DNA of 44,838 bases, taken from IMG/VR virus record IMGVR_UViG_3300030090_001253, positions 1-44,838 of that record. One strand, given 5' to 3'. Below, piece by piece: positions 35,955 through 43,738 of the stretch (the stretch's first letter is position 1; each line of letters starts with the position of its first letter). The translations under genes and the position numbers were made by a program. The notes beneath the pieces were generated by a model that was not told where the DNA came from, searched no databases, and was given only the letters and a program-made list of their open reading frames with translations. Source of the stretch: a virus.

Positions 35955-37625
35955 ATGGCAGGTCGTCCCAAGAAAGACCCCAACGCTCCCAAAGCTACGT
36001 ACCACCTGTCCAAGCGGGAACTTGCCCGTCGTGCCGCCCAAAAGAAACTTACAGCAGCCAAGAAGAGTGCAGAGAAGGTAACCAAACGAGCGGAGGGAAA
36101 GCGTAAGTATGCTAAGAAGATTGCGACTAGCATGGGCAAAGTTGAAAATGCCCTCAACGCCAAAGCTACCACAGTTATCGATCAGGGGGATCTTGCCGAT
36201 CTGCCCCCTCCGGTCACTGACCTCGTCGAAGATGCAGAAGTTATATTCAAGCCTAACGACGGTCCCCAAGAAGATTTCCTGTCTGCTGGCGAACGTGACG
36301 TTCTTTACGGAGGGGCCGCCGGGGGAGGCAAAAGTTTTGCGCTTCTTGCGGACCCGCTACGTTATTGTCACAATCCTAACCATCGTGGTCTACTCCTGCG
36401 CCGTACTCTTGATGAGTTAACCGAACTTATAGACAAGTCACGCCAGCTATACGTCAAAGCGTTTCCCGGTGCGAAGTTTCGTGAGTCGAAGTCTACGTGG
36501 CACTTCCCGTCTGGTGCTACGATCTGGTTCACCTACCTCGACAAAGACAAAGACGTAACCCGCTTTCAAGGACAAGCATTCAACTGGATAGGTATCGATG
36601 AAATCACACAATACCCCACTCCTTATGTCTGGGACTACTTGCGTTCTCGCCTTCGCACTACTGATCCTGAACTCCAGCAACACTTGTACATGCGCTGCAC
36701 TGCCAACCCGGGGGGAGTGGGAGGTTGGTGGGTCAAGAAAACCTACATAGAGGGAGTCGAACCCAACAAGGCATTCCCTGCCTTCGACATAGAAACAAAG
36801 AATAACTTCTTGTGGCCCGACGGTCACGAAAAAGCGGGGCAACCTCTCTTCTACCGCAAGTTCGTTCCTGCACGTTTGACTGACAATCCGTACCTCATGG
36901 CGGACGGACAGTACGAAGCGATGCTCAGATCGCTACCAGAAGTCGAACGCAAAAGACTCCTAGAGGGTGACTGGGACGTAGCGGAGGGAGCAGCCTTCCC
37001 AGAGTTCTCTCGTGAAAAGCACGTTGTAGAGCCATTCGAACTTCCGACGAATTGGCCCCGGATACGAATGGCGGACTACGGTTACGCTGCACCATCGTGT
37101 GTTCTGTGGGGCGCAATCGATTGGGACAACAACATCTGGATCTACAGAGAGTTATATCAAAAACACTTGACAGCAGAAGAGTTAGCTGCTAAAATACTAA
37201 AAGCTGAACAACTAGATCCTCTACCGCATTACACGGTCCTTGACTCGTCTTGCTGGAACAAGACAGGTTTTGGGCCTTCAATCGCAGAAGTGATGATGAG
37301 GGCGGGTGTGAGGTGGACGCCTTCAGATAGAAACCGCATACAGGGCAAGATGGAGATACACCGTCGTTTAGCTGATGATTCATACACAAAAGAACCACGC
37401 CTACGCTTCTTTTCTTCTTGTCAGAATATTATCAAACAGATTGCGGGTATACCCTTGTCTAAAACAAACAGTGAAGACGTAGACACAAAGGCTGAAGATC
37501 ACGCATACGACGCTCTGCGCTACGGAATGATGACACGCATGAGCGGATACGCTTCGATACACCAACAGTTGCACTCCATAAAGAATCAGGTGCATCAAGT
37601 ACAAGATGAGGTCTTTGGCTACTAA
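35955..37625 (+). CDS. terL: Terminase large subunit
   Basis: A 556-residue packaging motor. Residues 119-127 are Walker A (GGAAGGGKS); FNWIGIDEI is Walker B with the catalytic Glu; MRCTANPGG is the coupling motif. The C-terminal RNase H-type nuclease shows Asp in MADYGYAAPS, Asp in VLDSSCW, and Asp in AEDHAYDALRYG. It cuts concatemeric DNA and pumps it into the prohead through the portal. The first 55 residues are a Lys/Arg/Ala-rich extension with an AT-hook-like GRPKK at 3-7. Stop overlaps the next ATG (TAATG). Confidence 0.93.
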   Translation: MAGRPKKDPNAPKATYHLSKRELARRAAQKKLTAAKKSAEKVTKRAEGKRKYAKKIATSMGKVENALNAKATTVIDQGDLADLPPPVTDLVEDAEVIFKPNDGPQEDFLSAGERDVLYGGAAGGGKSFALLADPLRYCHNPNHRGLLLRRTLDELTELIDKSRQLYVKAFPGAKFRESKSTWHFPSGATIWFTYLDKDKDVTRFQGQAFNWIGIDEITQYPTPYVWDYLRSRLRTTDPELQQHLYMRCTANPGGVGGWWVKKTYIEGVEPNKAFPAFDIETKNNFLWPDGHEKAGQPLFYRKFVPARLTDNPYLMADGQYEAMLRSLPEVERKRLLEGDWDVAEGAAFPEFSREKHVVEPFELPTNWPRIRMADYGYAAPSCVLWGAIDWDNNIWIYRELYQKHLTAEELAAKILKAEQLDPLPHYTVLDSSCWNKTGFGPSIAEVMMRAGVRWTPSDRNRIQGKMEIHRRLADDSYTKEPRLRFFSSCQNIIKQIAGIPLSKTNSEDVDTKAEDHAYDALRYGMMTRMSGYASIHQQLHSIKNQVHQVQDEVFGY

Positions 37626-39820: not shown

Positions 39821-41944
39821 ATGGAAGATAGGTTTTTAGAACCTGCCAGCGATGAGCAGATTGACGTAGCGTCCCCTGAAGATCAGATGCCAAACTTAGC
39901 CGCATACATTCGCGGCAAGTTTGAGGATTCTGAAAACGGAAGGTACGCATACGAACAACGATGGCTACAGGCGTACAAGAATTTTCGTGGTATCTACGAC
40001 TCCACTACTCAGTTTAGAGATAGTGAAAGATCTAAGGTATTCATAAAGATTACTAAGACTAAGGTTTTGGCTGCATATGGACAGATAGTAGATATCTTGT
40101 TTGCAAACAAAAAGTTTCCCATAGTCGTAGAGTCAACTCCTGTTCCAGAGGGTGTGGCTGAATTTGCTCATATGCAAACTCCCCTAGATAGTGTGATTCA
40201 ACCAGAAACCCCAACAGATCCTTACGGGTTCGATGGAGATGGTAGAGAACTACCCCCCGGTGCAACACAAGCACAAGAACCTAAACACTTCTTGGGTGCG
40301 TACTCTAAGAACATGGAAAATGCTCCTGTGGTAGAGGGTAGGGCATTGGCGGGGGAGCCGCAAATATCTCCCGCACAAAAATCTGCTCTAGAATGTGAAA
40401 AGATTATACACGATCAGCTTATCGACACAAATGCGGTAACTGTCATACGTAAAAGCATCTTTGAATCTGCTTTACTTGGCACAGGAGTCGTAAAAGGTCC
40501 GATGAATATGTACAAGCGTATTCATAGGTGGGAAACTGATGACAGTGGAGAGCGTACATACAACCCTTATGAAAAGGTTGTACCAAGAATAGAACACGTT
40601 TCTATTTGGGATTTCTATCCTGATCCGTCCGCTGTCAACATCGATGACTGTGAATACGTGATACAACGTCATCGAATGAGTCGGCAACAGGTTCGTAGCC
40701 TTCTTATGATGCCACATTTTAGACAAGAAGAAATAGAAGCCACTCTAGCTGAAGGGCCAAACTACGAGGATAAATACTACGAAGACACCATCAGACAGGA
40801 TGAGACTGAGGCGTATTACAACGAAAATCGTTTTGAAGTCCTAGAATATTGGGGCGTAATCGATGCGTATATGGCAGAAGCCGTTGGCATGGATACGGAG
40901 GATATACCTGATGAGTTTTCACAGGTACAGATTAATGCGTGGATATGTGGTAACAACGTACTACGATGTGTAATCAATCCATTTACACCTAGTCGTATAC
41001 CGTTCTTCGCTCTTCCATACGAAATCAACCCATACCAAATCTGGGGCGTTGGTGTGGCAGAGAACATGGAAGACGCACAGATGCTGATGAACGGTCATGT
41101 TCGTATGGCGATAGATAACCTCGCTCTTGCAGGTAACTTAGTATTCGATGTAGACGAAGCATCTCTCGTACCCGGACAAAACATGGATATCTTTCCCGGC
41201 AAGATATTCCGCCGCCAGTCAGGGGTCACCGGAACAGCCGTAAATGGCCTCAAGTTTCCGAACACGGCTGGTGAAAATATACAGATGTATCAAATCAGTC
41301 GCCAACTTGCAGACGAAGAAACTGGCCTTCCCTCTATCATGCACGGTCAAACTGGCGTTAGTGGCACGGGCAGAACAGCAGCAGGTTTATCTATGCTTAT
41401 GGGCAGTGCTAGTTTGTCCATGAAGACTGTAGTTAAAAATGTAGACGATCATCTTCTAAAGCCGTTAGGAGAATCTTATTACCAATGGAATATGCAGTTT
41501 AATGACACCATGACTGATCTCAAAGGAGATCTAGAAATAAAACCTCGTGGTGTGGCTGCGGTGATGCAAAAGGAAGTGCGTAGTCAAAGACTGATAGGTC
41601 TTTTACAAACTGTTGCCAATCCTATGCTTGCTCCGTTCATCAAGATACCAAACCTTATGCGAGAGTTAGCCATATCACAAGACATAGATCCAGACAGTCT
41701 AGTCAATGATGTAAACGAAGCGCAGATTTATGCTCAAATGCTACAGGGAATGATGCAAGATGCTCAACAAAGATCAGGCGAGGCAGGTGGCTCACCTCGT
41801 GAACAATCAGAAGGCGTGGGAGGGGCTGGAGACGTACCTCAACAGCCTCAAGGAAATGACGGTGAAAGCCCTGACGGTAGCACAATCGGAGTCGGAACTG
41901 CGCCAACTGCAGGGGAAGCTGGTTTTACTGGAAACCTTACTTAA
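39821..41944 (+). CDS. Portal protein
   Basis: A 707-residue protein matching podovirus-type head-tail connector portals in position (after terminase, before scaffold and capsid) and texture. The N-terminal region (YEQRWLQAYKNFRGIYDS, FIKITKTKVLAAYGQIVDIL), the WDFYPDPSA and QRHRMSRQQVRSL segments, and the helical GRTAAGLSMLMGSASLSMKT are typical of marine phage portals. It forms the dodecameric ring through which terminase packs DNA. The last 60 residues are Gly/Gln/Ser/Pro-rich and low in complexity, and this part overlaps another gene in a different frame. Confidence 0.82.
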   Translation: MEDRFLEPASDEQIDVASPEDQMPNLAAYIRGKFEDSENGRYAYEQRWLQAYKNFRGIYDSTTQFRDSERSKVFIKITKTKVLAAYGQIVDILFANKKFPIVVESTPVPEGVAEFAHMQTPLDSVIQPETPTDPYGFDGDGRELPPGATQAQEPKHFLGAYSKNMENAPVVEGRALAGEPQISPAQKSALECEKIIHDQLIDTNAVTVIRKSIFESALLGTGVVKGPMNMYKRIHRWETDDSGERTYNPYEKVVPRIEHVSIWDFYPDPSAVNIDDCEYVIQRHRMSRQQVRSLLMMPHFRQEEIEATLAEGPNYEDKYYEDTIRQDETEAYYNENRFEVLEYWGVIDAYMAEAVGMDTEDIPDEFSQVQINAWICGNNVLRCVINPFTPSRIPFFALPYEINPYQIWGVGVAENMEDAQMLMNGHVRMAIDNLALAGNLVFDVDEASLVPGQNMDIFPGKIFRRQSGVTGTAVNGLKFPNTAGENIQMYQISRQLADEETGLPSIMHGQTGVSGTGRTAAGLSMLMGSASLSMKTVVKNVDDHLLKPLGESYYQWNMQFNDTMTDLKGDLEIKPRGVAAVMQKEVRSQRLIGLLQTVANPMLAPFIKIPNLMRELAISQDIDPDSLVNDVNEAQIYAQMLQGMMQDAQQRSGEAGGSPREQSEGVGGAGDVPQQPQGNDGESPDGSTIGVGTAPTAGEAGFTGNLT

Positions 41945-41984
41945 ATTAAAAGAAAGTCACACAGCAGTTTTGAAGGTGAATTAG
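41760..41984 (+). CDS. Small helical protein overlapping the portal 3' end
   Basis: A 74-residue protein in a different frame from the portal, overlapping its last 185 bases. The sequence (MLNKDQARQVAHLVNNQKAW, then LETYLNSLKEMTVKAL, SESELRQLQGKLVLLETLL) looks like a well-formed helical protein of the kind often encoded just after phage portals. The overlapped portal tail is low complexity, which suggests this frame is the constrained one. It may be a portal-associated or head-completion factor. The next gene starts two bases after its stop. Confidence 0.65.
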   Translation: MLNKDQARQVAHLVNNQKAWEGLETYLNSLKEMTVKALTVAQSESELRQLQGKLVLLETLLKLKESHTAVLKVN

Positions 41985-41986
41985 AT

Positions 41987-43738
41987 ATGGGATATAATTT
42001 TTACGCTGGATCTGGGACTAGCCCGTGGATAAACTGGTATATGCCCCAACCTGTTCAACCCACATCTCCTACTGATCCCGATCCAAATCTAGATCCTGAT
42101 CCCACTCCAATTTTGCCAATAGTTTCTGATCCCGATCCATTTAATATTCGGGGGGAGCGTGGGCAGGACGACCCAGCAAGCTCAACCGATCCCGTAAGAG
42201 CAACCAGAAACATCATGGCTAAAACTCTGGGCGGGGGCATGAAAAACAACATTGGTTTCATAGACCCCGGAAGCATAAATTTTAACAGCTTTGATGAGTA
42301 CCTAACAGCGAAGGGCATACCAGATAGAAGCGGGGTATTTTCTGGCGTAAGCTTAGAGGGAACAGAGTTCGCTGACACTAGGATGGTGGAGGGTCCGCTA
42401 GGACAACTTAACAGAAACATCCCTAAACACGGGTTTTTTGGCTTTATGGCGTCTGTGTCGTTGGGGCAAGAGTTCGACGCTCTGGGTAAGATAAAACAAG
42501 CCCATGCCAACAACCCCGATCCTGCCGATCCCTTTGAAAACGGTGTGGCTTTCACCGTCGGGGATATCGTTATCTACAGAGAACCCGGATCAAACTTGTA
42601 TAAGGGGTATGATTCGTTGGGCATAAATCAAGAAACAGCACGGGGATTGGGTGATTTAGTTGTTGGAAGAGAAATTGGAAGTCAAATAATGCAAGGCAAC
42701 ACTATTCTCGATCACTTTGGGTCTGACCCCATAAACGATCCGGATGTACTTAAAGGAATTGCTGACACAGCAATACTGACCACGACAAACGGTGGATGGG
42801 CATTGGACGGTTCATTCAACTTCAAGGGAAGAAAAACTTCAGCAGGACGTGGAATAGATAACAAAGATCTAGCAAATAGGGTTTTTAAAGGAAACGAATC
42901 TATAGCTAGGCAGTGGAGAAACACATCTAGCTCTAAAAAGAATGCCTCTGCTATTGAAAGACTTGCTGACTTACAATACTTCATGGATGTTTCTCAGGGT
43001 GTGTCAGCATTAGATGCGGCTTCAACAAGAACACAAACTATAACTTCTAGAATAAAGCCGGGAGGCAGCTACTCTCCTGACATTGCAAAGCCGAAAGTCA
43101 CTACAACGACTCCGGGCGGCCCCGCTCCTGCAAAACCAGTTGCACAAGATCCTGAAAAGGGTTCTGGAGATCCTTCTTCAGAGGATAAATATGGAGGTAT
43201 AGAGGCTGGTGGTCCTCTAGGCGGCGGTTACGGAGGCTACAACCCGACTCCCGGAGGACGAGCTATGGGAGGCCGTGCTGGCTACAATCTAGGTGGCGTC
43301 AAAGACGACGACATGATCATATCCGAAGAGGAGGCACGTAACGGAACGGATGAATCAGGATTTATAGTCCGACCACCATCTGAGGTTAGCGATGAAAAGT
43401 CTATAGCTGATGACTATACTCTTGAAGCAAAGGATGAGGACTTTATCATAAACAAGTCTGCGGTTGACATTGCAGGGCAGATGGATATCGCCCGAATGAT
43501 TAACGATGCTGAAGACTATTTACGTCGGACAGGAAGAGGTAATCCTGAAAGAGACGAAAAACAAGGAGAGACATCTAAGATAAATGTATCTGCAGGGGAA
43601 GTTCGTATACGCAAAGAACTAGCAGAAGTCATAGGCTACGATGTCCTTCGTAAAATAAATAATAGAGGAAGACCCGCTACAGAGAAAAAGATACAAGACT
43701 CTAAGCAGCAAGGATTCCTAGAAAGACCTATGGTATAA
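41987..43738 (+). CDS. Head-associated protein with conserved C-terminal domain
   Basis: A 583-residue protein. Residues 20-55 are Pro/Asp-repetitive (SPTDPDPNLDPDPTPILPIV). Residues 60-350 are a globular region I cannot assign. Residues 350-430 are a Gly/Pro/Thr-rich linker (GGGYGGYNPTPGGRAMGGRA). Residues about 455-583 are a domain seen in marine phage head regions: DEDFIINKSAVDIAG, INDAEDYLRRTG, VSAGEVRIRKELAEVIGYDV and INNRG. It lies between portal and scaffold, so it is probably a virion protein. Confidence 0.55.
   Translation: MGYNFYAGSGTSPWINWYMPQPVQPTSPTDPDPNLDPDPTPILPIVSDPDPFNIRGERGQDDPASSTDPVRATRNIMAKTLGGGMKNNIGFIDPGSINFNSFDEYLTAKGIPDRSGVFSGVSLEGTEFADTRMVEGPLGQLNRNIPKHGFFGFMASVSLGQEFDALGKIKQAHANNPDPADPFENGVAFTVGDIVIYREPGSNLYKGYDSLGINQETARGLGDLVVGREIGSQIMQGNTILDHFGSDPINDPDVLKGIADTAILTTTNGGWALDGSFNFKGRKTSAGRGIDNKDLANRVFKGNESIARQWRNTSSSKKNASAIERLADLQYFMDVSQGVSALDAASTRTQTITSRIKPGGSYSPDIAKPKVTTTTPGGPAPAKPVAQDPEKGSGDPSSEDKYGGIEAGGPLGGGYGGYNPTPGGRAMGGRAGYNLGGVKDDDMIISEEEARNGTDESGFIVRPPSEVSDEKSIADDYTLEAKDEDFIINKSAVDIAGQMDIARMINDAEDYLRRTGRGNPERDEKQGETSKINVSAGEVRIRKELAEVIGYDVLRKINNRGRPATEKKIQDSKQQGFLERPMV

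Follow-up and report, generated by a model that had tools for sequence, protein, structure and literature searches.

Gene organisation at the portal locus

The analysed stretch of DNA, called the window in the following, comprised 44,838 bases, the whole of the IMG/VR virus record IMGVR_UViG_3300030090_001253. It contained a gene for an SU10/P22-like portal protein, which scored 90.1 bits against the Pfam model SU10_portal (PF23899; gathering cut-off 30) and matched phrog_332 at 1.5e-78. The portal was 49% identical to that of HMO-2011 and the terminase large subunit (TerL) was 56% identical over residues 90-530, in keeping with membership of the HMO-2011-type group. An ORF of 74 amino acids that shares 185 nt with the portal gene in another frame had been described in an earlier note on this DNA and was exactly reproduced from the ORF list. 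The portal product in the overlap was seen in translation to be rich in Gly, Gln, Ser and Pro, as also described there. The following features were located.

35955..37625, + strand: TerL gene, used as tree marker, matching the annotated TerL of named phages (e.g. CRP-2 position)
39821..41944, + strand: portal protein gene, 707 aa
41745..41749, + strand: AGGGA, a possible weak ribosome-binding stretch 5' of the nested ATG
41760..41984, + strand: nested small gene with ATG start, 74 aa, product predicted to be helical
41760..41944, + strand: dual-coding overlap of 185 nt, small frame at +1 relative to the portal frame
41882..41935, + strand: portal tail motif TIGVGTAPTAGEAGFTGN, common to phages without a gene beneath it
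41910..41915, + strand: codons for Q51-G52 of the small protein, where the portal reads A-G-E
41987..43738, + strand: next gene of the ORF list, 583 aa, with its ATG 2 nt past the small-gene stop

The 583-aa gene at 41987..43738 had no family match in PHROG or Pfam. Among relatives, length and sequence of the gene following the small gene were highly variable (ORFs of the window, L004 and L080), and a KINNRG-like stretch near its end was retained in all three.

Conservation of the nested gene

Relatives were collected by eight IMG/VR scans with the portals of the window, HTVC033P, HTVC104P, HMO-2011, CRP-235, CHOED, Y3 and Slicky01, and 28 regions of named phages were added. HTVC103P came after the counts and stands outside them. 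After exclusion of 38 identical portals, of L503, which was the window again, and of loci in which the portal lacked a stop before the contig end, the final set consisted of 552 different portals, each with its stop. Of these, 526 had a small-gene homologue at their end, as detected by a profile that was built up from the 74-aa protein of the window alone. These homologues were reached by the profile search alone; a tblastn search of the phage collection with the 74-aa protein returned nothing, though homologues were present.

In portals nearest to the window, HTVC033P, HTVC104P or HTVC115P, here called nested-type, the gene was kept in 351 of 352 cases. The sole exception, L068, is a contig that stops 10 nt past the portal stop. 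All 351 nested genes started with ATG and all lay in frame +1. Stop codons in the small frame of close relatives, which the earlier note had named as evidence against the gene, were thus absent. Portals without a small-gene match numbered 26 and were one nested-type portal (the contig end), three of HMO-2011 type with at most 131 nt of downstream sequence, 17 of CRP-235 type, two of Slicky01 type and three of the outgroup. The 17 CRP-235-type loci lie between L367 and L419, and the 420 nt searched near their portal ends gave no match to the small gene. In some of them the gene may have been lost, moved or changed beyond recognition; in at least L408, the sequence after the portal is short.

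The nested gene was missing from the annotation of all four pelagiphage records, HTVC033P (L082), HTVC115P (L085), HTVC104P (L086) and HTVC103P (L639), with the ORF present in each. The small gene with intermediate overlap, described below, was likewise unannotated in the CRP-1 and CRP-345 records. HTVC115P carries an annotated Lys/Gly-rich ORF of 45 aa directly after the portal and downstream of the nested gene (L085 3640-3777).

The nested ATG was preceded by a ribosome-binding-like match (4 bases or more) in 67% of the window clade (there of the AGGA type) and in 98-100% of the HTVC104P and HTVC115P clades, compared with 12-13% of other out-of-frame ATGs (12% in the control for the window clade) and just 4% of the HTVC033P clade. 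Expression would proceed by internal initiation within the portal cistron at the nested ATG, followed by coupling to the next gene.

Selection on the two reading frames

Synonymous change in the portal frame was strongly suppressed within the overlap. Between the same sequence pairs of the window clade, the portal synonymous rate fell from 0.588 in the body to 0.068 before the motif and 0.023 in the motif. The corresponding rates were 0.475 and 0.157/0.117 in the HTVC033P clade, 0.367 and 0.087/0.102 in the HTVC104P clade and 0.666 and 0.165/0.155 in the HTVC115P clade. Overall, the drop inside the overlap was 3- to 26-fold. Portal tails without a nested gene dropped less, from 0.456 to 0.270/0.193 in the CRP-235 type and from 0.672 to 0.505/0.276 in the HMO type.

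Small-frame dN/dS, of the kind proposed as a check in the earlier note, had intervals below 1 in all four nested clades (0.48, 0.53, 0.37 and 0.57) and was 1.38 in the non-overlapping CRP-235 tails. Under the non-overlapped portal body, the same frame gave 0.72-0.76 through codon-position effects, and in two of the four clades, HTVC033P and HTVC115P, the small-frame interval overlaps this range. In the motif of the window clade the portal was constrained too, with changes silent in the small frame and non-silent in the portal at 0.033 compared with 0.148 before the motif. Of the two products of the overlap, the small protein is under the tighter constraint. The low-complexity tail of the portal is not a free linker, since both coding frames limit its sequence.

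The open frame by itself was weak and unremarkable evidence, since 98 of 2000 synonymous-codon shuffles of the portal also gave an ATG ORF of at least 74 aa overlapping the portal end by at least 150 nt. An untranslated ORF, arising by accident because Gly/Pro-rich codons rarely give stops in the +1 frame, could draw on this count and on the 15 of 59 separate CRP-235 tails that are also open in that frame. It is hardly credible in view of the retention in 351 of 352 portals with an invariable ATG, the 3- to 26-fold loss of portal synonymous change and the homology to independent genes. Conservation and the loss of synonymous change put the nested ORF far beyond chance, and a chance open frame was rejected on these two grounds. 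Judged from sequence, by its conservation, the selection in the overlap and its homology to non-overlapping versions, the 74-aa ORF is a genuine gene.

Read in the portal frame, the overlap followed genome codon usage (r 0.53-0.64); read in the small frame, it departed from it (r -0.05 to -0.42). A newcomer frame usually departs from genome codon usage, so that this pattern is the usual sign of an older portal frame. Gly, Pro and Ala codons put G/C on the third positions of the small frame, and composition may explain the result.

The small protein and its family

The impression that the second frame encodes a folded protein agreed with the structure prediction. AlphaFold2, run with 89 aligned sequences, predicted a fully helical bundle of four helices with a mean pLDDT of 94.6 and a pTM of 0.78. 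Residues Q51 and G52 were invariant in 110 of 110 aligned members. Searches with 110 members gave no fitting model for the family in Pfam, PHROG or NCBIfam. Weak single-protein matches to the phrog_373 anti-repressor (0.0082) and INTS2 (0.0065) were taken as chance helix matches. In the PDB, sequence matches were limited to short segments of designed helical repeats and to unrelated helices, and Foldseek found nothing below E 1.8. Foldseek against BFVD detected uncharacterised phage proteins of 70-76 aa, with best TM values of 0.86/0.91; judging by length, two of these matches might be the small proteins of RHph_N3_19 and CHOED, although this is a guess.

In CHOED, MQM1 and Slicky01, the small gene sits between the portal and the gene preceding the coat protein, and in StenR_269 between the portal and the scaffold. 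This constant place beside portal and scaffold or coat genes suggests a role in head or portal assembly, with the small protein acting as a helper of portal/procapsid assembly. Its family is old and has no name as yet; the members are small helical proteins whose genes directly follow that of the portal in SU10/HMO-2011-related phages.

Overlap states and the age of the small gene

The 526 homologues fell into 351 nested genes (overlap 170-219 nt), 80 intermediate ones (50-99 nt) and 95 separate ones (at most 40 nt). Nested and separate small proteins were homologous over 71 columns (E 1.6e-17, hhalign), and this full-length homology together with the position at the portal 3' end (526 of 552) unites them in one family. 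In L083 and 78 other loci of HMO-2011, CRP-345 or CRP-1 type, the portal continues past the tail motif and covers about the first 53-95 nt of the small gene, in frame +1. The portal synonymous rate of HMO-type phages was 0.093 where the start of the small gene is overlapped, compared with 0.668 in the body, so the intermediate overlap is real too. In the CRP-235 type, portal and small gene are set apart by an extra ORF of 54 aa, CRP3_gp38 (L096 3576-3740 and related loci), and the small gene of such loci starts about 156 nt past the portal end.

Outside these groups, the small gene follows the portal with an overlap of 0 or 1-4 nt in Y3-type phages, StenR_269 and ctsTn925, whose portals have no Gly-rich tail. 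The portals of these outgroup phages were only about 25% identical, and the homology of their small genes was modest (E 2e-4 to 4e-3 at Z=1000). In the outgroup phage Rollin, an upstream start would make an overlap of 77 nt. Presence of the gene with next to no overlap and no such tail in these phages indicates, on sequence grounds, that the small gene is probably older than the overlap. Gamma phages showed a short, GFTGN-like portal end with a Gly/Pro-rich tail and no overlap, which means that the final residues of the motif may have existed before the overlap. If the portal frame was the later one, outgroups should combine the gene with a tail-less portal; Y3-type phages do so, but in the gamma phages a tail that resembles the motif in part occurs with no overlap.

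These outgroups also bear on the opposite direction, in which the small gene is the newcomer, overprinted in the +1 frame of an old Gly/Pro-rich tail and later copied downstream elsewhere. The codon usage of the overlap, which fits the genome in the portal frame only and departs from it in the small frame as expected of de novo overprinting, speaks for such a history, as do the gamma portals that already possess a Gly/Pro-rich tail. It is nevertheless quite improbable, as homologues stand behind distant, tail-less portals with next to no overlap and the small protein is more constrained than the portal in the overlap. Nor is the small protein limited to phages with the overlap, since 95 of 526 homologues overlap by at most 40 nt.

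The portal tail among relatives

Shorter portals, expected in relatives by the earlier note, were not found. In HMO-2011, the CRP phages of Roseobacter and the Rhizobium phages, portal length is similar (702-716 aa), and the tail carries the same motif, beneath which there is no second gene. A tail profile of 24 columns was built from 24 non-redundant sequences out of 146 tails from 148 alpha phages, and at most 40 sampled loci per clade were scored with it. This profile of the separate HMO/CRP/Rhizobium state gave 30.4 bits on the nested tails of the window clade, 43.2 bits on HTVC033P and 34.5 bits on HTVC115P. The tails of the HTVC104P clade reached just 8.3 bits, and shuffled tails scored about -14 to -17 bits (-14 for the window clade). 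HTVC033P and HMO-2011 matched over some 24 residues. Homology of the tails and of the small proteins means that both products are apart in one lineage and superposed in another. The register was constant in the four nested clades, with portal G-[E/Q] over small-protein Q-G in 347 of 349 genes with the site. The Gly/Pro-rich tail would be a flexible arm and its last 24 or so residues a conserved binding motif.

Phylogeny and history of the overlap

In a TerL tree of 26 phages rooted on gamma phages, the HTVC104P/HTVC115P clade branched first and the separate alpha phages grouped with the window and HTVC033P clades (99/98). A single clade of all nested phages was rejected by TerL (p 0.00925) and by TerL and portal combined (24 phages, p 0.0395). 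The portal tree alone rejected neither an all-nested clade (AU p 0.541) nor an all-separate clade (p 0.574). The small-protein tree, with 72 columns only, placed the separate alpha genes of HMO, CRP and Rhizobium phages inside the nested ones (SH-aLRT 84-88) and the gamma genes with the outgroup, except for one gamma and one outgroup row that fell inside.

A history in which the separate state is ancestral and the nested phages form one derived clade would require that the portal lost its old tail, entered the small gene and re-evolved the motif by selection. The undecided portal tree leaves room for it, and the gamma phages, set off in both the TerL and the small-protein tree, have the separate state with a short GFTGN-like end. 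It is unlikely, given that the tail match between HTVC033P and HMO-2011 is too long for simple convergence, that TerL rejects the nested clade (p 0.009) and that the separate alpha small genes branch within the nested ones.

The best overall explanation, and a fairly likely one, is an old gene that was overrun once by the portal, with the two frames later separated in one lineage and both products kept. The overlap itself seems to have arisen once. According to the phylogeny and the constant register, the portal frame would have been extended by about 190 nt into the small gene in the common ancestor of the window clade and the pelagiphage clades, after which portal tail and small protein would have been read from the same DNA. 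The overlap was probably undone later in one branch with both proteins kept. Descent of the separate alpha phages from nested ancestors is supported by the tail homology, TerL and the small-protein tree, and in the lineage to HMO-2011 and the Roseobacter CRP and Rhizobium/Sinorhizobium phages the two frames would have come apart, most simply by a short tandem duplication. One duplication can split superposed sequences, whereas two independent sequences can hardly be superposed. No relic of the small frame was detected under the separate tails (-7.7, compared with -4.1 for synonymous shuffles), no trace of the tail was found in separate small genes, and none of the loci searched held two copies. 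With no relic in either direction and no two-copy locus, the duplication is inferred.

The proposal of the earlier note, that the portal tail was extended into an older downstream gene, thus stood in part. Outgroups with the gene and without the tail support the age of the gene, and as regards the distant origin the note was probably right that the portal overran an older gene. The picture of short portals in relatives and an extended one here was wrong as stated. An overlap that is old and was later resolved in one lineage fits the data, and the absence of shorter portals is put down to a whole lineage that seems to have given up the overlap and retained the tail. The chances are about even that a conserved portal part was born as an alternative reading of an older gene and was later released in the HMO-2011/Roseobacter/Rhizobium lineage, the constrained tail being a fossil of the overlap.

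Comparison with known systems

Overlapping genes have been studied mostly at their gain, and the undoing of a long overlap with survival of both proteins is seldom testable. If true, the history favoured here would be a natural case of an overlap that was gained and then undone without loss of either product. Overlaps of about 190, 53-95 and about 0 nt occur side by side in one abundant group of marine phages, and each of these three states is represented by many sequences and by cultured members. What an overlap costs, how constraint is released and in which order the events took place thus become measurable. The head module of pelagiphages gains a conserved, unannotated small gene. The literature search returned no paper on the overlap of portal and small gene.

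The type III secretion co-chaperones PscE/EscE (PDB 2uwj, 7y6b) are likewise small and helical, with about 70 residues. They were the best VIA-align match (Z 7.0, rmsd 3.0, 68 aligned), with a Z within the helical-bundle background and Foldseek E values of at least 1.8, and the structure comparison with VIA-align and Foldseek against the PDB gave no evidence of kinship with the small protein. The HMO-2011-type marine phages (PMC9038755) have portal and TerL homologous to those of the window. Several of them carry the small gene as an annotated hypothetical protein behind the portal, and the two genes share about 0 to 74 nt. The window and pelagiphage clades differ from them in that the gene is nested by about 190 nt in the portal, and this nesting goes unmentioned in the parts of PMC9038755 consulted. 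In overlapping C-terminal extensions, as probably here, the end of a gene enters its neighbour in another frame and a new C-terminal part is made from the DNA of an older gene. The present case differs in that it concerns dsDNA podovirus-like phages of about 45-55 kb and that relatives carry the same tail motif without a gene beneath it.
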